DNA of 64,000 bases from Sphingomonas vulcanisoli (GTDB lineage Bacteria > Pseudomonadota > Alphaproteobacteria > Sphingomonadales > Sphingomonadaceae), in the NCBI RefSeq assembly GCF_011761305.1, contig NZ_JAAOZC010000003.1, positions 1 to 64,000 of the forward strand. The letters are read 5' to 3'. Position numbers and translations under genes: made by a program. Under the pieces are notes generated by a model that had not been told where the DNA came from, did not search any database, and saw only the letters and a list, made by a program, of their open reading frames with translations. The number at the start of each line of letters is the position of its first letter. The stretch's first letter is position 1. Positions 16,681 to 25,003 of the stretch are shown one piece after another.

Positions 16681-16806
16681 TCCTCCCCGGCACGGGGAGG
16701 TGGCGGCCGTAAGGCTGACGGAGGGGGCTATCAACCGGCGCCGCGCCTAATGGTGAGCCCCCTCCACCATCCTGCGGATGGTCCCCCTCCCCGTGCCGGG
16801 GAGGAT
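16681..16806. repeat. Palindromic repeat family A, copy A5 (between two stop codons)
   Basis: The arms TCCTCCCCGGCACGGGGAGG and CCTCCCCGTGCCGGGGAGGA begin directly after the TGA at 16678-16680 and reach the TAA of convergent gspD (16806-16808). The inner part has GCTGACGGAGGGGGC opposite GCCCCCTCCACCATCC. Its exact fit between two stop codons may let it act as a bidirectional hairpin. Confidence 0.88.
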
Positions 16807-18896
16807 TAGTAGATCCCCTCAAGCTCCACCGGCAGCCGCGCCCTCGGCGGCTCGAGCAACAGGCTGCTGTGATCGCTCAGCCCATATTCCGCGCCGCGCA
16901 GCCGCAGATATTTGCCATCCGCCGCGGTCGAAACCTCCGCAGCGGTGCGCAGGATCGTCGGGCGCAGGAACACGAACAGGGTCCGCTTGGTCTGCTCCAG
17001 CTTGCGATCCTTGAACAGATTGCCGACCAGAGGCAGATCGCCCAGCACGGGCACCTGGCTCTTGGTGTCCATACGGTCGTCCGAGATCAGCCCGCCGAGC
17101 ACGATCGTCTGGCCATCATCGGCCAGCACCGTGGTCTGGATCGCGCGGCGGTTGGTGACGAGATCGGCCGCGCCCGTCACCGCGCCCGCGATCGAGGACA
17201 CTTCCTGCGACACATCCAGCCGGATCGTATCGCCCTCATGCACGCGCGGGATGATCTTGAGCGTCAGGCCGACGTCCTGCCGTTCGATCGTCGTGAACGG
17301 CGTTGTCGTGCTGCCCGCGACGGTGGTGTAGCTGCCCGTCTTGAATGGTACGTTCTGGCCGACGATGATCTGCGCGGGCTGGTTGTCGAGCGTGGTGATG
17401 CTCGGCGTCGAGAGCAAATTCGCCTTGGTCGAGCTCGCCAGCGCCTGGATCAGGATCTGGAAATCATGGCCGCCGATCGCGCCGGTGATGCCGCCGTCGG
17501 TGGCGAAGGAGGCGACCTTGGCGCCCAGTGCCGACAGCACGCCGGAGAGCGAGGTGCCGTTGGTGCCGAACGAGCTGATCGCGCCGCTGGCATGCGGCAG
17601 ATCGCCGCCGACCCCGAATTGCACGCCCAGCGACTCGGCGACGTCGCTGTTGACCTCGACGATCGCCGCTTCGATCAGCACCTGCGGGCGGCGCACGTCG
17701 AGCTGTTCGATCAGCGGCTGGATCTGCGCGATCGCGGCGGGCGATCCGCGCACGACGATCGCGTTGAGCTCGGTCGAGGCCTGTACCGCGAGATCGGGGG
17801 TGGAGAAACCCACCGACGGCCCCGAGCTGCCGGAATTGTTGAGCGGCAGCGTGGCGGAGGCGCCGCCGCTGCCGCTGGTCGATCCCATCGTGCCGCTGCC
17901 GCTGGAGCCGATCCCCGAAATGCCGCCCGCCGCGAGCGCCGATGCGCCCGGTGATCCGGTGCCCTGCGTGCCTGTCGCGCCCGCGCCGAAGGCGGTGTCG
18001 GAGAGCGTCCGCGCCACCGGATTGGCCGATTGCGTCTGGCCGCCCATCAGCCCGGACAGCACCTGCGTCACCGCTTCGGCATCGGCCTGGCGCAGCCGGA
18101 AGACGCGCAGCGTCGGCGTGCCGCCGCCCGGCCGATCGAGCTGGGAAACCATGCGCCGCGCGTCCGCCACCGCCACCGGCGATCCGCGCACGATCAGGCT
18201 GTTGCTGCGCTCGTCGATCGCCACGCGCGGGCCGTTCTCGCCCTCGCCATAGAGGCTGCGGATCGCCGCGCCGACGTCCTTGGCGTTGGCGATGCGCAGC
18301 TGGATCGTCGCAAAGCCCGCGCCGCCGCCCGAATCGAGGCTCGCCGCCAGCCGCTCGATCCGCGCGATATTGTCGGCATAATCGGTGACGACGATCGCCG
18401 GCGGGCTGGTCAGCGGCTCGACGCTGCCGAACTGCGCGACCAGTGGGCGAAAGATCCGCGCCGCCGTCTCGGGCGACACATTGCGCAGGCGGATGAGGCG
18501 GGTGGTGACCGGCCCGGCCGCGACGCTGCTCGTCTCGCGCACCGCATCGGCCTGCGGCACGATCCGCCACGCGCGCCCGGCCCTGACCGCGGTGAAGCCG
18601 TGGACGCGCAGCACCGACTGGAACAGCTCCCACACGCCATTGGCGCTGAGCGGCGTCGCACTGGTGACGTTGACCGTGCCGCGCACCTGCGGATCGAGGA
18701 TCAGGGTGCGCCCGGTCAGCCGCGAGATCTGCTCGGCCACCGCCGAAATCTCGACATCATGCATGTTGACGACGATGTCGCCGGCATTGCCTGGTGCTGC
18801 AGGGCTCACCGCGGCGGACGGTGCCGTCGGCGCGGGCGCGCCTTGCGCCAGCGCGGGCGTGGCGATCAGCAGCGCGATCAATAGCAGGCGGATCAT
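16806..18896 (-). CDS. gspD: Type II secretion system secretin GspD
   Basis: A 696-residue outer-membrane secretin. Signal peptide (MIRLLLIALLIATPALAQ), N0 domain (VVNMHDVEISAVAEQISRLT), N1-N3 repeats separated by a Gly/Ser-rich linker (residues ~330-380), then the secretin domain with GQNVPFKTG, RQDVGLTLKIIPRV and the signature VPVLGDLPLVGNLF. No S-domain or lipobox is obvious, so pilotin use is unclear. The start overlaps the gspC stop as ATGA, showing a gspCD operon. Transcription probably starts at the promoter at 19788-19816. Confidence 0.96.
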   Translation of the reverse strand: MIRLLLIALLIATPALAQGAPAPTAPSAAVSPAAPGNAGDIVVNMHDVEISAVAEQISRLTGRTLILDPQVRGTVNVTSATPLSANGVWELFQSVLRVHGFTAVRAGRAWRIVPQADAVRETSSVAAGPVTTRLIRLRNVSPETAARIFRPLVAQFGSVEPLTSPPAIVVTDYADNIARIERLAASLDSGGGAGFATIQLRIANAKDVGAAIRSLYGEGENGPRVAIDERSNSLIVRGSPVAVADARRMVSQLDRPGGGTPTLRVFRLRQADAEAVTQVLSGLMGGQTQSANPVARTLSDTAFGAGATGTQGTGSPGASALAAGGISGIGSSGSGTMGSTSGSGGASATLPLNNSGSSGPSVGFSTPDLAVQASTELNAIVVRGSPAAIAQIQPLIEQLDVRRPQVLIEAAIVEVNSDVAESLGVQFGVGGDLPHASGAISSFGTNGTSLSGVLSALGAKVASFATDGGITGAIGGHDFQILIQALASSTKANLLSTPSITTLDNQPAQIIVGQNVPFKTGSYTTVAGSTTTPFTTIERQDVGLTLKIIPRVHEGDTIRLDVSQEVSSIAGAVTGAADLVTNRRAIQTTVLADDGQTIVLGGLISDDRMDTKSQVPVLGDLPLVGNLFKDRKLEQTKRTLFVFLRPTILRTAAEVSTAADGKYLRLRGAEYGLSDHSSLLLEPPRARLPVELEGIY

Positions 18897-19648
18897 CGCG
18901 TCGGCACCGTCAGCGTCACCGGCTGGCCGTTGCGCATCACTACCATCTGCGCGCTGCCGTTGCTCTGCACCGCCTGCAGCGCGGCGGGATTGGCGATCAG
19001 ATCGGCGACGGGCTTGTCGGCGATCTTCTGGATGACATCGCCGGGCTGGAGACCGGCGGCGCGGGTGCGCTCGGTCGTCTGGCCGATGTGGAGGCCGTCA
19101 CCGCCCACGGTCGCTCCCAGCGACGAGAGGAAGGCGGCGGTGCCGGCCAGCGAGGGTGGCTGCGCGGCGGTCGGGTTCGACACCGGGGCGGGGGCCGCGG
19201 CGTGGAGGCCGCCGTTGCGATCGGGAAAGCCCAGGCTCTGCCGCCCGCCACTCCCCGAGAGGATGACATGATCGACCGCGATCGATTCGATCGTGCCCGG
19301 GCCGATCTGCTGTCCGATGTAAAAGGCTTGAGGCGCCGCTCCGCCGACGGAGATCAACGCGGAAGAGGCCGATTGCGGCACGGCGAGCAGGATACCGCGC
19401 AGCACGATGCTCTGATCGGCCGATGCGCTGGCAGCGGGCGCGGCGACGCTGCCGCCGAACGGCGTGAGCGCGATCAAAGGCGCGATGTCGACAGGTTTGG
19501 CCGGTCGTGCCGCCACGGGCGCCGCGCCGAACCGCTGGCCGGGATCGCCCGCCAGCCGCCACGTCAGCCCCGCCAGCGCGATGCCGATCGAGATCGCCAC
19601 GAGCGCGGTGAAGATATCGACGCCGATCCGCGCCTGGCGCGGCGTCAT
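18893..19648 (-). CDS. gspC: Type II secretion system protein GspC
   Basis: A 251-residue inner-membrane protein that links the platform to the secretin. Start MTPRQARIG chosen because it gives the usual short cytoplasmic tail before the transmembrane helix (~10-28); the frame remains open further upstream without family-like sequence. After a linker comes the homology region (LRGILLAVPQSASSALISVG, FYIGQQIGPGTIESIAVDHV), then a C-terminal PDZ-like domain (GLQPGDVIQKIADKPV, residues ~200-251). Stop overlaps gspD start. Confidence 0.9.
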   Translation of the reverse strand: MTPRQARIGVDIFTALVAISIGIALAGLTWRLAGDPGQRFGAAPVAARPAKPVDIAPLIALTPFGGSVAAPAASASADQSIVLRGILLAVPQSASSALISVGGAAPQAFYIGQQIGPGTIESIAVDHVILSGSGGRQSLGFPDRNGGLHAAAPAPVSNPTAAQPPSLAGTAAFLSSLGATVGGDGLHIGQTTERTRAAGLQPGDVIQKIADKPVADLIANPAALQAVQSNGSAQMVVMRNGQPVTLTVPTR

Positions 19649-19787
19649 GCGCGCGCGCCCTCGCGGCAGCAAAGCTGCCCCTGCGCGGCCTTGTAACGCT
19701 CCACCCCGTCCATCCGGCGCCCCTCGCTCCCCCGCTTTGTCGCTGGCCCACCGAACGAGGGCAAGCCGATTCTCGTTCAGCTCGGCC

Positions 19788-19816: not shown

Positions 19817-19838
19817 TAGGAGAAAGCTATCCAGGTTA

Positions 19839-19966
19839 TCCTCCCCCGCTAGGGGGAGGTGGCGCCGAAGGCGTCGGAGGGGGAGGACGGCGGCACATTC
19901 ATTTGAGGCAATCACGTCCGCCCCCTCCGTCAGCTGCGCTGACACCTCCCCCTGGCGGGGGAGGAT
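19839..19966. repeat. Palindromic repeat family A, copy A6
   Basis: The arms TCCTCCCCCGCTAGGGGGAG and CTCCCCCTGGCGGGGGAGGA, inner GGCGCCGAAGGCGTCGGAGG and CCCCTCCGTCAGCTGCGCTG. Lies directly after the gspG stop. Closest to copy A7 (41625), sharing AGCTGCGCTGACACC and GGCGCCGAAGGCG blocks. Confidence 0.88.
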
Positions 19967-19968
19967 GA

Positions 19969-20583
19969 TCAGTGGCCACTCAGCTTGATGTCGGCATCCA
20001 CGCCCTCGCCGCCGACCTTGCCGTCCTTGCCCAGCGTCGTCAGTTCGAACCCCAAGCCGTCCTCGCCGGGGCTCTTGTAGGTGTAGGGATGGCCCCACGG
20101 ATCGCTCGGCAATTTGTCGAGATAGCCGCCCGAGGCATAGTTCGCAGGCGCGGGATCGCCGCTCGGCTTGGTGACGAGCGCCTGCAAGCCCTGCTGAGTG
20201 GTGGGATAATCGCCATTGTCGAGCCGATACATCTTGAGCGCCGCAGAGATCGATCGCAGGTCGCTCTCCGCCACCGTCACCCGCGCCTGATCGGGCCGGC
20301 CGATGATGTTCGGCACGATCAGCGCCGCGATCAGAGCGATGATCGCCAGCACCACGATCATCTCGATCAGGGTGAGACCTGCTTCATCCTCCCCTGCAAG
20401 GGGAGGGGGACCATGCGCAGCATGGTGGAGGGGTATCCCGCTATCGATAGGGTGACACCCCTCCGTCATCGCTGACGCGATGCCACCTCCCCTTGCAGGG
20501 GAGGATGGCGGGGAACTGCGACGATCTTCGCTTGGCATAGCGGTCATGCGGCCTAGTATAGCCGTCTCCCATGCGAAGGCCAT
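19969..20583 (-). CDS. gspG: Type II secretion major pseudopilin GspG with repeat-encoded leader
   Basis: The mature pseudopilin is clear: prepilin peptidase site EDEAG|LTLIEMIVVLAIIALI with Glu at mature position 5, then LGKD and the C-terminal calcium-loop region LPSDPWGHPYTYKSPGEDG. The mature length is ~135 residues, as usual. The leader is abnormal. Repeat A2 lies in frame between any upstream start and the cleavage site and encodes ~40 residues. Possible starts give leaders of 69 (ATG 20583), 57, 54, or 31 residues (ATG 20469, inside the repeat); normal leaders are ~6-25. The 20583 start would overlap divergent gspL by 13 bases. The true start is uncertain. Confidence 0.88.
   Translation of the reverse strand: MAFAWETAILGRMTAMPSEDRRSSPPSSPARGGGIASAMTEGCHPIDSGIPLHHAAHGPPPLAGEDEAGLTLIEMIVVLAIIALIAALIVPNIIGRPDQARVTVAESDLRSISAALKMYRLDNGDYPTTQQGLQALVTKPSGDPAPANYASGGYLDKLPSDPWGHPYTYKSPGEDGLGFELTTLGKDGKVGGEGVDADIKLSGH
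20388..20506. repeat. Palindromic repeat family A, copy A2 (inside gspG)
   Basis: The arms TCCTCCCCTGCAAGGGGAGG and CCTCCCCTTGCAGGGGAGGA, with inner GTATCCCGCTATCGATAGGG and GTGACACCCCTCCGTCATCG. It is translated on the minus strand as part of the GspG leader. Confidence 0.92.
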
Positions 20584-21704
20584 TGCCCCTCAACGACTTC
20601 GCGACCGACCGAGGCCCGGCCACCGCCGGCATCTGGTCGATCGATGGCGATGGCCTGAGGCCGATCGAGCGCTTCGATGTCGGCCCGGCGATCGTGTTGG
20701 TGCCGAGCGAGGCGGTGTTGCTGCTCACCGCTGATCTGCCCTTGCCCACGCCCCGCCGCCGCTTCGAGGCCTTGCCCTTCGCGATCGAGGATCGGGTCGC
20801 GGTGCCGATCGGCAGCGTCCATTGCGCACTGGGCGAGGAGCTTGCGCCGCAACGCCACCTTGCGGGCGTCGTCGATCATGCCGTGATGGCCGCGTGGAGC
20901 GCGATGCTCGCCGAGGCCGGTCTCGATCGCGCCGCGCTCGTGCCCGATGCTCTGGCCTTGCCCGTGCCTCCGGAGGGCGCGTGGAGCGTCGATCTCGCTG
21001 CGGGCCGCGCGCTGGTGCGCCTGCCCGATGGCACCGGCTTCGCGCTCCCCGCCGCGCATCTCGAATCGGCGTGGGAGACGGCAGGGCGCCCCCGCATAGT
21101 GGCCTATGGCGAGCTTCTGCCCTTTGCCGTCGCCGGCGATCCCCTCGAACTCGCCGCCACCCCCCTCGCCGAACGCCTGCTCGCTCCCGCGCTGGACCTG
21201 CGTCAGGGCCGCTATGCCCCACCCCGCCGCAGCGCCTCACCCTTGCTCAAGCGCATCGCTATCGTCGCCGCGATCGGGGTCGTCGCGCATGGCGCGATCG
21301 CCACCGCCGATACGTTGGCGCTGGATCATATCGCCTCCCAGCGCGCCGCCGAGACGCGCGCGCTGATCGCGCAGGTCGCGCCCACCGCCGTGGTCGGCGA
21401 GGATGTCGCCGCCAGCGCCGAGGAACTGCTCCCCACCAGTGGCGCCGGCCCCTCGCAATTCCTGCCCTTGCTCTCCCGCGTCGCCACCGCGCTCAAGCCG
21501 CTCGGCGCGCAGATCGTGATGCGCAGCGTCAATTTCGATGCCGCGCAGGGCACGCTCTCGGTCGAGATCGAGGCGGCGGACATCGCCGGCCTCCAGAAGG
21601 CGGGCGGCCTGCTCACCTCGAGTGGGCTCAACGCGATGGCCGGCGCGGCGAGCCAGGATCAGGGCAAGGCGGTGGGCGCCTTCCTCATCAAGGGCGCGGC
21701 CTGA
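20571..21704 (+). CDS. gspL: Type II secretion system protein GspL
   Basis: A 377-residue assembly-platform protein. The cytoplasmic actin-like domain (residues ~15-225: VPSEAVLLLTADLPLPTPRR, LPFAIEDRVAVPIG) is followed by one transmembrane helix (~228-250) and a periplasmic ferredoxin-like domain ending GAFLIKGAA. It recruits the GspE ATPase and binds GspM. First gene of a tight plus-strand run gspL-M-E with ATGA overlaps. Divergent from gspG with almost no intergenic space. Confidence 0.9.
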   Translation: MRRPLPLNDFATDRGPATAGIWSIDGDGLRPIERFDVGPAIVLVPSEAVLLLTADLPLPTPRRRFEALPFAIEDRVAVPIGSVHCALGEELAPQRHLAGVVDHAVMAAWSAMLAEAGLDRAALVPDALALPVPPEGAWSVDLAAGRALVRLPDGTGFALPAAHLESAWETAGRPRIVAYGELLPFAVAGDPLELAATPLAERLLAPALDLRQGRYAPPRRSASPLLKRIAIVAAIGVVAHGAIATADTLALDHIASQRAAETRALIAQVAPTAVVGEDVAASAEELLPTSGAGPSQFLPLLSRVATALKPLGAQIVMRSVNFDAAQGTLSVEIEAADIAGLQKAGGLLTSSGLNAMAGAASQDQGKAVGAFLIKGAA

Positions 21705-22189
21705 TGCTGGAGCAACTCCGCCCCCAATGGGAGAAAGGCGCGCTGTGGTGGGATGAGCGTTCGGCGCGCGAGCAGCTGATGCTCGGTAGCCTGTTCGCCA
21801 TCGCGCTCGTCGCGCTGCTGCTCGGCGCAGTGATCCGCCCGCTGGAAAGCGCGCGCGCCCGGGCGGCGGCGGACATCCGCACCTATCAGATGATCGATCT
21901 GCGGCTGCGGCAGGGCGGGGTCAGCAGCGGCCAGCGCTCCGGCCCGCCCGCGCAGCAGATCTCGCAGAGCGCGGCGGCGGCGGGGCTGCAGGTCCAGCGG
22001 ATCGAGCCGCAGGGCGCGCGCACCAACGTGGTGCTGGCCGATGCGCCGTTTGATGCCGTGCTGCGCTTCGTCGCCGATCTCGAAAAGAACAGCGCGCTCC
22101 GGGTCAGCGAAGCTCGTATCGAACGCAGCCAGATCGCCGCGGGCATGGTCACCGCGCAATTCCTGGTCGCCGGGGGCGCAGCGGGCTGA
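21704..22189 (+). CDS. gspM: Type II secretion system protein GspM
   Basis: A 161-residue inner-membrane protein. A short cytoplasmic tail (WDERSAREQLMLGS, typical of GspM) leads into one helix (~27-45), a coiled stretch, and a periplasmic ferredoxin-like domain (LQVQRIEPQGARTNVVLADA, FDAVLRFVADLE). Start and stop both overlap the neighbours as ATGA, so gspL, gspM and gspE are translationally coupled. Confidence 0.9.
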   Translation: MLEQLRPQWEKGALWWDERSAREQLMLGSLFAIALVALLLGAVIRPLESARARAAADIRTYQMIDLRLRQGGVSSGQRSGPPAQQISQSAAAAGLQVQRIEPQGARTNVVLADAPFDAVLRFVADLEKNSALRVSEARIERSQIAAGMVTAQFLVAGGAAG

Positions 22190-23658
22190 TGGCGACCGCA
22201 GCCCCCGCCCGCGCCCTGCTCCCCTACGGCTTCGCCCGCGTACAGGGCGTGATCGTCGCCGATGGCGAATGCCTCCACCGCGCCGCCACGCCACTGACCG
22301 CATTGCTCGAAGCCCAACGCCTCGCCGGCGCCGCGCTCGCCTGGCGCAAGCTGCCCGATGCGGAGTTCGAGAAGGCCCTCCAAGCGCTCTACCGCGATCA
22401 GGCAGGGGACAGCGCCGATATCGCCGCCGAGGCGACCGATCTTCACGCGCTCGCCGACAGCGTCGCCGCCACCGAAGATCTGCTCGATACCTCCGACGAT
22501 TCGCCCGTCATCCGCCTGATCAACGCGCTGCTGCTGGAGGCGGTGAAGGAGCATGCCTCCGACATCCACGTAGAAACGCAGGAGCGCCGGCTGATCGTCC
22601 GCTTCCGCGTCGATGGCGTATTGCGCGATGTGGTCGAGCCCAATCGCGCGCTGGCGCCGCTGCTGACCAGCCGGATCAAGGTGATGGCGCGGCTCGATAT
22701 CGCCGAGAAGCGCGTGCCGCAGGATGGCCGCGTCACGATCCGCGTCGGCGGGCACGAGATCGACATCCGCGTCTCCACCATCCCGACGCAGCATGGCGAG
22801 CGCGTGGTAATGCGCCTGCTCGATCGCGGGTCGGTGGAGCTCGACATGGCGACGCTCGGCATGAGCCCGCGCGACCTCACCCTGTTCGAGAAACTGCTTG
22901 ATCGCCCGCACGGGATGCTGCTCGTCACAGGGCCGACGGGTTCAGGCAAGACGACCTCGCTCTATGCCGCGCTGACCCGGCTCAACGATCGCAAGCGCAA
23001 CATCATGACGGTCGAGGATCCGATCGAATATGAGCTGGCGGGCATCGCCCAGACCCAGGTCAACCCGCGCACCGATATGAGCTTCGCGCGCGGGCTGCGC
23101 GCCATCCTGCGCCAGGATCCGGACGTGATCATGGTCGGCGAGATCCGCGATCAGGAGACTGCCGAGGTCGCGGTGCGCTCCGCGATGACGGGCCATTTCA
23201 TGCTCTCGACCCTGCACACCAATTCGGCGGTGGGATCGGTTACGCGATTGGTCGACATGGGGGTGGAGCGGTATTTGTTGGCGCCGATGCTGGTCGGGTT
23301 GGTCGCGCAGCGGCTGGTGCGGCGGCTGTGTTCGGCGTGTCGGCGCGAGGATGTCGCGGGCGCGCGGGATGCCGCACTGCTGGATGGCGCGATCGCCGAG
23401 GGTGAGACGGTGTGGCGCGCGGTAGGCTGTCCGGCCTGCCGGGGCGAAGGCTTCCGGGGTCGGATGGGGATCTACGAGATCGTCGCGGTCGATGGCGCCT
23501 TCGAGGCGCTGATCCACGATGGCGCGCCGGAGGCGGCGCTGGTCGCAGCGGCACGCGCGGCGGGGCCGAGCTTGCTCGACGACGGCATCGCCAAAGTGCG
23601 CGCCGGGGAGACCACGGTCGAGGAAGTCGCGCGGGTGACGCGGGATGAGGGGGTCTAG
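22189..23658 (+). CDS. gspE: Type II secretion system ATPase GspE
   Basis: A 489-residue hexameric secretion ATPase on the cytoplasmic face. Features: N-terminal GspL-binding region, SDIHVETQERRLIVRFRVDG, Walker A GPTGSGKTTSLY (~residue 247), Asp box MTVEDPIEYEL, Walker B-type VIMVGEIRDQETAE, His box GHFMLSTLHTN. The C-terminal tetracysteine zinc motif is CSAC (~380) with CPAC (~414), as in canonical GspE. Stop is followed by repeat C2 and then gspF. Confidence 0.96.
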   Translation: MATAAPARALLPYGFARVQGVIVADGECLHRAATPLTALLEAQRLAGAALAWRKLPDAEFEKALQALYRDQAGDSADIAAEATDLHALADSVAATEDLLDTSDDSPVIRLINALLLEAVKEHASDIHVETQERRLIVRFRVDGVLRDVVEPNRALAPLLTSRIKVMARLDIAEKRVPQDGRVTIRVGGHEIDIRVSTIPTQHGERVVMRLLDRGSVELDMATLGMSPRDLTLFEKLLDRPHGMLLVTGPTGSGKTTSLYAALTRLNDRKRNIMTVEDPIEYELAGIAQTQVNPRTDMSFARGLRAILRQDPDVIMVGEIRDQETAEVAVRSAMTGHFMLSTLHTNSAVGSVTRLVDMGVERYLLAPMLVGLVAQRLVRRLCSACRREDVAGARDAALLDGAIAEGETVWRAVGCPACRGEGFRGRMGIYEIVAVDGAFEALIHDGAPEAALVAAARAAGPSLLDDGIAKVRAGETTVEEVARVTRDEGV

Positions 23659-23679
23659 TGCGCCTCTTCACTTCTTTTC

Positions 23680-23767
23680 GTCACCCCGGACTTGTTCCGG
23701 GGTCCACTCCACCACGGGCTCCGGAGCTTCAGGATGGGTGGACCCCGGAACAAGTCCGGGGTGACGG
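23680..23767. repeat. Palindromic repeat family C, copy C2
   Basis: The arms CGTCACCCCGGACTTGTTCC with GGGGTCCAC and GTGGACCCCGGAACAAGTCC with GGGGTGACGG are near-perfect complements. It splits the gspE-gspF gap. A Shine-Dalgarno (GGGGGGAGG) follows just outside its right edge, ahead of gspF. Confidence 0.92.
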
Positions 23768-23782
23768 TAAGGGGGGAGGCTG

Positions 23783-25003
23783 ATGGCCGCGTTCGTCTAC
23801 AAAGCCGTCGATACCGCCGGGCGCCCGCAAAAGGGCGTCGTCGAGGCCACCAGCGCGGCGGGTGCGCGCCGCCTGCTGCGCGAACGCGCGCTCCTCCCGG
23901 TCTCGGTCGAAGCCAGCACCGCCAAGCCCTCGGCCACCGCCATCCCGCTTCCCTGGCCCCGCCGCCGCATCTCCGCCCGCGCGCTGGCCACCGCCACCCG
24001 CCAGCTCGCCACCCTGATCGGCAGCGAGATCGCGGTTGAGGAGGCGCTGCGCCTCGCCGGCGATCAGGCCGAAACCACCCGGATGCGCTCGCTGCTCCTC
24101 GAACTGCGCGGCAGCATCCTTGATGGCCGCAGCCTCGCCGCCGCGCTGGCGCTCCACCCCCAGGCCTTCCCCGATTATTATCGCGCCTCGATCGCGGCGG
24201 GCGAGCAGAGCGGGCGTTTGGGTGAGGTGATGACCCATCTCGCCGATTTCGTGGAGAACAGGCAGCGGGCGCAGCAGAAGGTGCAGCTTGCCCTGCTCTA
24301 TCCGGCGCTGCTGGCGGTGGTATCGCTTTCGATCATCGTGCTGATGATGATCTTCGTCGTCCCCGATATCGTCCGCGTGTTCGAAACGCATGGCGCGGAC
24401 CTGCCCTTTCTTACTCGCCTGCTGATCTTCGCCAGCAATTTCGTCCGCCATTTCGGCTGGGTGCTGCTCGCGCTGATCGTCCTCGGTGGGATCGGCGCGG
24501 GCCGCTGGCTCAAGAGCCCCGCCAACCGCCTGACGCTCGATCGCACGCTCGCCACCCGGCGGCCCTTCGCCAAGGTTGTACGCCAGTTCGCGGCGGCGCG
24601 CTTTGCGGGGACGCTCGGCCAGCTCGTCGAAAGCTCGGTGCCCTTGGTCGATGCGCTGCAGGCGGCGGCGGCGACCACCTCCAACCTGTATGTCCGCGAA
24701 CGTGCGATGGCGGTGGCGGCCCGGGTGCGCGAGGGCGGCAGCGTGGCGGGCGCGATGCAGGAGACCGGCGCTTTCCCGGCGATGCTGGTGGCGATCGTCG
24801 CGAGCGGCGAGGCGAGCGGGCGGCTCGGGCCGGCAGTGAGCCGCGCAGGGACCGAACTCGATCGTGAGATGGAGGCTTTGACCTCGACGATCGTCGCGCT
24901 GGTCGAGCCCGCGGTGCTGTTGTTCATGGGCGGGATCGTGCTGCTGCTGGTGCTTGCGATCCTTCTGCCGATCATCAACCTCAACAATCTGGTCGCGCAG
25001 TGA
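23783..25003 (+). CDS. gspF: Type II secretion system inner-membrane protein GspF
   Basis: A 406-residue platform protein with two tandem T2SSF domains. N-terminal FVYKAVDTAGRPQKGVVEA, first domain with RQLATLIGSEIAVEEALRLA, hydrophobic helix (LALLYPALLAVVSLSIIVLM), second domain with RFAGTLGQLVESSVPLVDAL, and a C-terminal membrane helix (VALVEPAVLLFMGGIVLLLV). Length matches the family. GGGGGGAGG lies just before the ATG. It converges with gspN, 4 bases apart. Confidence 0.95.
   Translation: MAAFVYKAVDTAGRPQKGVVEATSAAGARRLLRERALLPVSVEASTAKPSATAIPLPWPRRRISARALATATRQLATLIGSEIAVEEALRLAGDQAETTRMRSLLLELRGSILDGRSLAAALALHPQAFPDYYRASIAAGEQSGRLGEVMTHLADFVENRQRAQQKVQLALLYPALLAVVSLSIIVLMMIFVVPDIVRVFETHGADLPFLTRLLIFASNFVRHFGWVLLALIVLGGIGAGRWLKSPANRLTLDRTLATRRPFAKVVRQFAAARFAGTLGQLVESSVPLVDALQAAAATTSNLYVRERAMAVAARVREGGSVAGAMQETGAFPAMLVAIVASGEASGRLGPAVSRAGTELDREMEALTSTIVALVEPAVLLFMGGIVLLLVLAILLPIINLNNLVAQ

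Follow-up and report, generated by a model that had tools for sequence, protein, structure and literature searches.

The window that we analyzed, a 64,000-nucleotide stretch of DNA, comes from contig C3 of genome G000 (Sphingomonadaceae, 3.27 Mb), a draft in 17 contigs from a genus that includes Sphingomonas natans. Eight genes of a type II secretion system (T2SS), C, D, E, F, G, L, M, and N, all lie within it, the match for N falling just below the curated cut-off. The features on which our argument depends are the following.

16806 to 18896, minus strand: gspD, the secretin (Pfam Secretin, 1e-48).
18893 to 19744, minus strand: gspC region (Pfam T2SSC, 1.2e-11).
19838 to 19966, minus strand: second, diverged copy of the palindromic element, 129 bp, between gspG and gspC (HMM score 21.5; inverted arms I7).
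19969 to 20547, minus strand: gspG, the T2SS major pseudopilin, 192 amino acids made up of a 57-residue leader and the mature protein (start placed by alignment with congeners).
20377 to 20379, minus strand: codon of Gly(-1), with the predicted prepilin-peptidase cut, G|LTLIEM, between 20377 and 20376 (sequence and alignment).
20386 to 20506, minus strand: 121-bp imperfectly palindromic element, ATCC...GGAT, within the leader codons, encoding SSPARGGGIASAMTEGCHPIDSGIPLHHAAHGPPPLAGED (recognized from dispersed copies).
20507 to 20547, minus strand: ancestral 5' segment of the leader, MTAMPSEDRRSSP, the 41 nt ahead of the element (congener alignment and joining of the flanks).
20555 to 20560, minus strand: TATACT, a possible -10 box 7 nt ahead of the ATG, which reads TATAGT in two congeners (alignment).
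20571 to 21704, plus strand: gspL, the divergent neighbor of gspG (Pfam T2SSL, 8.7e-23; upstream region aligned to congeners).
21704 to 25003, plus strand: gspM, gspE, and gspF (Pfam).

The product of gspG matches TIGR01710 at 3e-49 (166.5 bits; cut-off, 88.85) as well as Pfam T2SSG (1.2e-38) and N_methyl, and it is the only GspG encoded in the genome. The remaining pseudopilin genes, gspH, gspI, gspJ, and gspK, are found on contig C4, where H and K score below the NCBIfam cut-offs yet are collinear with I and J, and a prepilin peptidase gene lies at C1:234333. A T2SS without H to K, which had been suspected since gspG has no gspH neighbor, was ruled out by the genes on C4.

On the minus strand, the gspG reading frame stays open between 20583 and 19969 and passes through the repeat. 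The original prediction placed this repeat in frame between every upstream start and the cleavage site, yielding a leader of 31 to 69 residues where 6 to 25 would be usual. The repeat is indeed in frame, except that the start for the 31-residue leader, ATG 20469, lies inside it. The leader is also extended, and the start common to S. natans (G002) and a second congener (G004), an ATG at 20547 directly after a conserved TATAnT, sets its length at 57 residues, consisting of MTAMPSEDRRSSP, the element-encoded segment, and EAG. The 69-residue start is unlikely because congeners read a stop, ATGGCCTTCGCATAA, at that place, and the range quoted for usual leaders was too narrow, given that assignable GspG leaders of clade relatives mostly have 22 to 36 residues and reach about 41. 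With TATACT only 7 nt from the ATG, a leaderless start of gspG is possible from the sequence.

Alignment of GspG from related genomes, the check that had been proposed, recovered the ancestral, repeat-free state. In S. natans (MRMKPSGSATEVSHLAPNGEQG|LTLVEM) and G004 (MRMNPSAYATEVSHRVPEREQG|LTLVEM), the leader has 22 residues, and the extra residues in the window come from a high-copy palindrome, which supports the central claim that a palindrome has rewritten the GspG leader. When 120 nt were taken out and the flanks joined, the result was MTAMPSEDRRSSPPEAG|LTLIEM, a 17-residue leader in frame, whereas removal of the full 121-nt repeat unit broke the frame; the net gain was therefore 120 nt, or 40 codons. 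Of the six frames in this copy of the element, a single one is free of stops, namely, the one read by gspG. Downstream of the insertion, the cleavage site and the mature helix are untouched, with Gly57 (-1) and Glu62 (5) of the prepilin site invariant in a 20-sequence alignment. The 40 added residues are hydrophilic, proline rich, and disordered by prediction. For the leader as a whole, hydropathy is -0.56 and its maximum over 19 residues is 0.44, which suggests no additional membrane segment; net charge is -4, as against -4 or -5 in certain relatives; and predicted pLDDT is 43 to 59 (disordered), compared with 93 for the first block of the mature N-terminal helix. At the RNA level, the 215 nt around the element have a predicted fold of -126 kcal/mol (hairpin z = -9.5), and because so stable a hairpin lies close to the gspG start, lowered or altered expression is possible.

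The element is one of a large family. Across all 121 bp, it is 100% identical to a twin copy at G000:C7:99809-99929, and at least 40 places in the genome scored as full or near-full matches to it. In 603 kb of the genome, profile searching returned 93 full-length copies, which is a lower bound for the genome, and genome-wide pattern matching with 24 nt from one end of the element (up to 3 mismatches) gave 123 matches, compared with 0 for the reversed control pattern. The 93 copies are mostly 115 to 129 bp long, with a mean fold of -89.7 kcal/mol, and they begin with ATCC in 79 cases and end with GGAT in 78. Like a MITE, the element has terminal inverted repeats, ATCCTCCCC...GGGGAGGAT. The family is present in every congener sampled and is weaker in other genera of the family. 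Flanking direct repeats of 1 to 9 nt were not in excess around the copies, in a comparison where duplication of the palindromic dinucleotide AT is indistinguishable from the element ends. Our search for Y1 transposases found no RAYT flanked by the element; the one Y1_Tnp in the genome looks IS200-like and, read by eye, has no element in its 2.35-kb surroundings, so that we rejected a RAYT as the mover. In Rfam, only plant and animal microRNA models matched, far below threshold, and we took these as chance hairpin similarity.

Copies of the element avoid gene interiors. In a strict two-sided test, which the insertions in gspG and in an ABC-protein gene escaped, only 1 of 93 copies had coding DNA on both flanks, compared with 54% of random positions, and that single copy looks like an intergenic gap between two genes. 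Three intragenic copies among the 93 are confirmed, in gspG, an amidohydrolase gene, and an ABC ATPase gene. The amidohydrolase copy (C3:96643-96760; L152 6643-6760) is in frame within the gene of a secreted protein, at the junction between the N-region and the hydrophobic core of the predicted Sec signal peptide. In five congeners, this protein starts at a GTG or ATG in GGAGACGTGAARTGAAG and has an ordinary signal peptide beginning with MK (e.g., MKRLLL...). From the same GTG, the window's genome reads MRARK, then 39 to 40 element residues, and then IAIAAVLVAAPLPAA; subtracting 117 nt restores the frame as MRARK(M/L)IAIAAVLVAAPLPAA, while subtracting the full 118-nt unit breaks it. The copy in the ABC protein (C2:326766-326881; L156 4766-4881) forms an in-frame linker insert between two ATPase domains, is translated in the same frame as in gspG (SSPARGGG...PPLAGKD), and is missing from the short linker of the same two-domain protein in G006. 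Here, too, removal of 117 nt restores the frame and removal of the 116-nt core breaks it. A further copy, at G000:C2:440401-440519, alters the N-terminus of a DUF455-like gene and has no usual start codon directly after it; the ancestral start could not be firmly placed, and we left this copy out of the in-frame cases.

Among relatives, palindromes recur in the leaders of other pseudopilins. The gspG leaders of S. natans and G004 hold none, but other palindrome families, with exact arms of 13 to 33 nt, occupy their gspI and gspH leaders and that of gspJ in G004, and most of these palindromes recur elsewhere in genome samples of about 220 kb. We then surveyed gspH-gspI junctions, with genes assigned by motif, and obtained 47 short and 29 long junctions. 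In most of the short ones, the start codon of gspI and the stop codon of gspH overlap as ATGA or GTGA, and the median leader is 7 residues. Among the long ones, 28 of 29 have a length that puts gspI in the frame of this overlapping start, and every one of the 28 is open, encoding 38 to 72 residues. Most repeats in the gspI parallels are not followed by a start codon. The HMM built for the element family of the window matches eleven long leaders (best, 4e-17); one of them, MKILPGTGRGTAAKRWWRGVSPNAIAACADTPLHHAAHGPPPRTGEDADAG|FSLIEA, has PLHHAAHGPPP and GED in common with the GspG leader of the window. Within the clade that carries the window's family, leader lengths of 149, 149, 149, 152, 152, 152, 155, 158, 161, 209, and 212 nt differ by multiples of three. 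Because the sequences are related, the 28 in-frame leaders are not independent; a rough count of one event per family and clade gives about seven or eight insertions, each with a one-in-three chance of agreeing in frame before an open frame is required.

Other long gspI leaders belong to families that can be told by their peptides and are dispersed to different degrees. In 1.5 Mb, places outside leaders numbered 29 to 33 for VRAERSRST...FDFAQ.ERG, 17 to 18 for HAGLVPASTAP...WTPEQVRGD, 14 for TPLPDKGGVGGG...PDPSLRREGG, 6 for LLRKQEPR...GSCFRRS, and 1 to 2 for RHPGESRDL...IPAFAGMTD, whose dispersal is weakly supported; the leaders of L122, L100, and L094 had no match outside leaders in the same 1.5 Mb. 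As read from these matches, most long gspI leaders (e.g., L088, L096, and L087) are dispersed palindromes of at least five families, the window's among them. Another kind of repeat occupies the gspG-gspH junction of L081, L083, L084, and L088; its terminal DNA resembles GGGATGAC or GGGGTGAC, and gspH apparently takes its start codon from this repeat. Since several gspH repeats may supply a start codon and not a leader, gspH was not counted.

Our results are best explained by a recent, frame-neutral insertion of a mobile palindrome into the leader codons of gspG, an account that we consider probable. The insertion would have added a net 120 nt, so that a leader of about 17 residues grew to 57 with its frame unchanged, and GspG would still be translated from the old start at ATG 20547. 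In class III signal peptides, the leader is hydrophilic, varies in length, and does not leave the cytoplasm; prepilin peptidase, whose recognition depends on Gly(-1), cuts after that residue (PMC10191384, PMC6497953). The extended leader would likewise be kept in the cytoplasm and cut off, and the insertion may have been tolerated because a hydrophilic leader remains cytoplasmic and is removed. Given a hydrophilic, disordered leader and an intact cleavage site, frame-neutral insertion into a discarded segment is the simplest account. The element would thus be a passenger that the gene tolerates, and such elements would land repeatedly in the pseudopilin leaders of this family. In packed gsp operons with overlapping starts and stops, leader DNA may be the sole spacer where an insertion is harmless. 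In terms of sequence evolution, our findings support the view that the secretion signal now includes a mobile palindrome; that the strain translates and cleaves GspG and has a working T2SS, we infer from the genes and their frames.

The original prediction left two branches, a functional long leader or a T2SS without its major pseudopilin, and the complete gene set, the frame-neutral insertion, and the gspI parallels favor the former by inference. It also named what would count against it, namely, a start closer to the cleavage site in repeat-free relatives together with an inactive gspG; the nearer start is there, and no sign of inactivity was seen. An intact frame by itself is no proof of function, and the insertion, identical to its twin copy, may be too young for visible decay. 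This zero divergence, the very stable mRNA fold, and the lack of a GspG match in 4 of the 6 other congeners sampled (two of the four being fragmented assemblies) would suit a scenario in which a message hairpin or an unprocessable leader inactivated or strongly reduced GspG while the T2SS is being lost. We consider such a loss unlikely, as every T2SS gene that we sought, including gspH, I, J, and K and the prepilin peptidase gene, is present without stops, the frame was retained despite stops in five of six frames of the copy, and comparable palindrome-built gspI leaders are kept across many species. Slightly more doubtful is a regulatory reading, in which palindromes are repeatedly recruited because the hairpin that they place between the overlapping start and the body of the pilin adjusts translational coupling and hence the ratios of T2SS pseudopilins; if so, several palindrome families unrelated to one another would be exchangeable as regulatory inserts and would provide a leader peptide as well.

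Two further explanations fit the locus poorly. Translation could begin inside the repeat at the in-frame ATG 20469, leaving a leader of near-ordinary length (31 residues) and most of the palindrome in the 5' untranslated region. Yet this ATG sits in a predicted stem, and AGGGGAGG, about 16 nt upstream by our reading, is too distant for a good Shine-Dalgarno sequence; the upstream ATG 20547 with its TATAnT is conserved in congeners, and the gspI parallels are congruent with the upstream, overlapping start. We regard an internal start as improbable. A short, high-copy repeat in a 17-contig draft also invites the suspicion of an assembly artefact, which we consider highly improbable: the repeat is only 121 bp long, both of its flanks belong to one gene, and further in-frame insertions were seen, two in this genome and many in others. 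The divergent gspL-gspG arrangement is common to congeners, which likewise disfavors misassembly at the repeat.

Palindromes inserted in frame are best known from Rickettsia, and whether such inserts are harmless is debated. The Rickettsia palindromic elements (RPE), 105 to 150 bp long, form in-frame fusions with conserved genes that are otherwise unrelated (Ogata et al. 2000, 2002; PMC10969869, PMC2229807); one such fusion, with gmk, has been demonstrated to yield a translated product with enzymatic activity (PMC2229807). The element described here is similarly a dispersed palindrome of about 100 to 150 bp (93 copies) that lies in frame in gspG, the amidohydrolase gene, and the ABC ATPase gene and is missing from the orthologues in congeners. 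However, only 3 of 93 copies are confirmed as intragenic, compared with nearly half of RPEs (PMC10969869); the host, Sphingomonas, is free-living and not an obligate parasite; and the recurrent target is the pseudopilin leader. Enterobacterial RU-1 (ERIC), RU-2, and RU-3 are MITE-like repeats of 103 to 168 bp that, according to the available part of Delihas 2007 (PMC2759123), are likewise fused in frame to open reading frames. The RU hosts treated there are mostly hypothetical or lineage-specific proteins, and that part contains no pseudopilin leader and no cross-species frame comparison. The CIR of Caulobacter resemble our element as small, dispersed, palindrome-containing repeats of an alphaproteobacterium, but they are reported to be strictly intergenic (PMC10969869) and are tied to CcrM, whereas GANTC, the CcrM site, occurs in 0 of our 93 copies. 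We liken the element to RPE and RU by its apparent mode of action and claim no membership in either. In-frame palindrome insertion is thus of a known kind; in the open-access literature, we came upon no account of these Sphingomonas elements, of pseudopilin leaders that hold palindromes, or of recurrent targeting of such leaders.

The pseudopilin leader seems to be a site where mobile DNA settles without breaking the gene. A free-living, widespread group of bacteria here offers a natural series, in which the leader of one gene has taken up repeats of at least five unrelated families, leader lengths change by threes, and sister species with short leaders serve as controls. This makes it testable what length and degree of oddity prepilin peptidase will accept in a class III leader, and whether selfish palindromes prefer those parts of a protein that are cleaved away and lost. 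In addition, start-site calls and signal predictions may be wrong for genes that carry leader inserts.

The surroundings of the copies show some regularities of their own. The bases adjoining the element ends are biased, with R before ATCC and Y after GGAT, and CGATGATCG-like DNA lies outward of copies at G000 C3:390964, C4:174073, C6:158304, C8:29971, C8:63527, and others, which suggests a target preference or a longer subfamily. We rejected the idea that the ends of the element generally act as preformed Shine-Dalgarno sequences, the signal being too weak (an ATG within 12 nt of the end in 42 of 186 cases, compared with 61 of 360 controls). At three places, G000:C1:716605, C1:742404, and C3:152598, outward-reading GGGGAGG ends stand a few nucleotides before start codons and, from their sequence, could serve in this way. 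Finally, the pseudopilin genes are split between gspG on C3 and gspH-I and gspJ-K on C4, and copies of the element adjoin both locations (19838-19966 in the window; G000:C4:131839-131954), making a repeat-mediated rearrangement possible.
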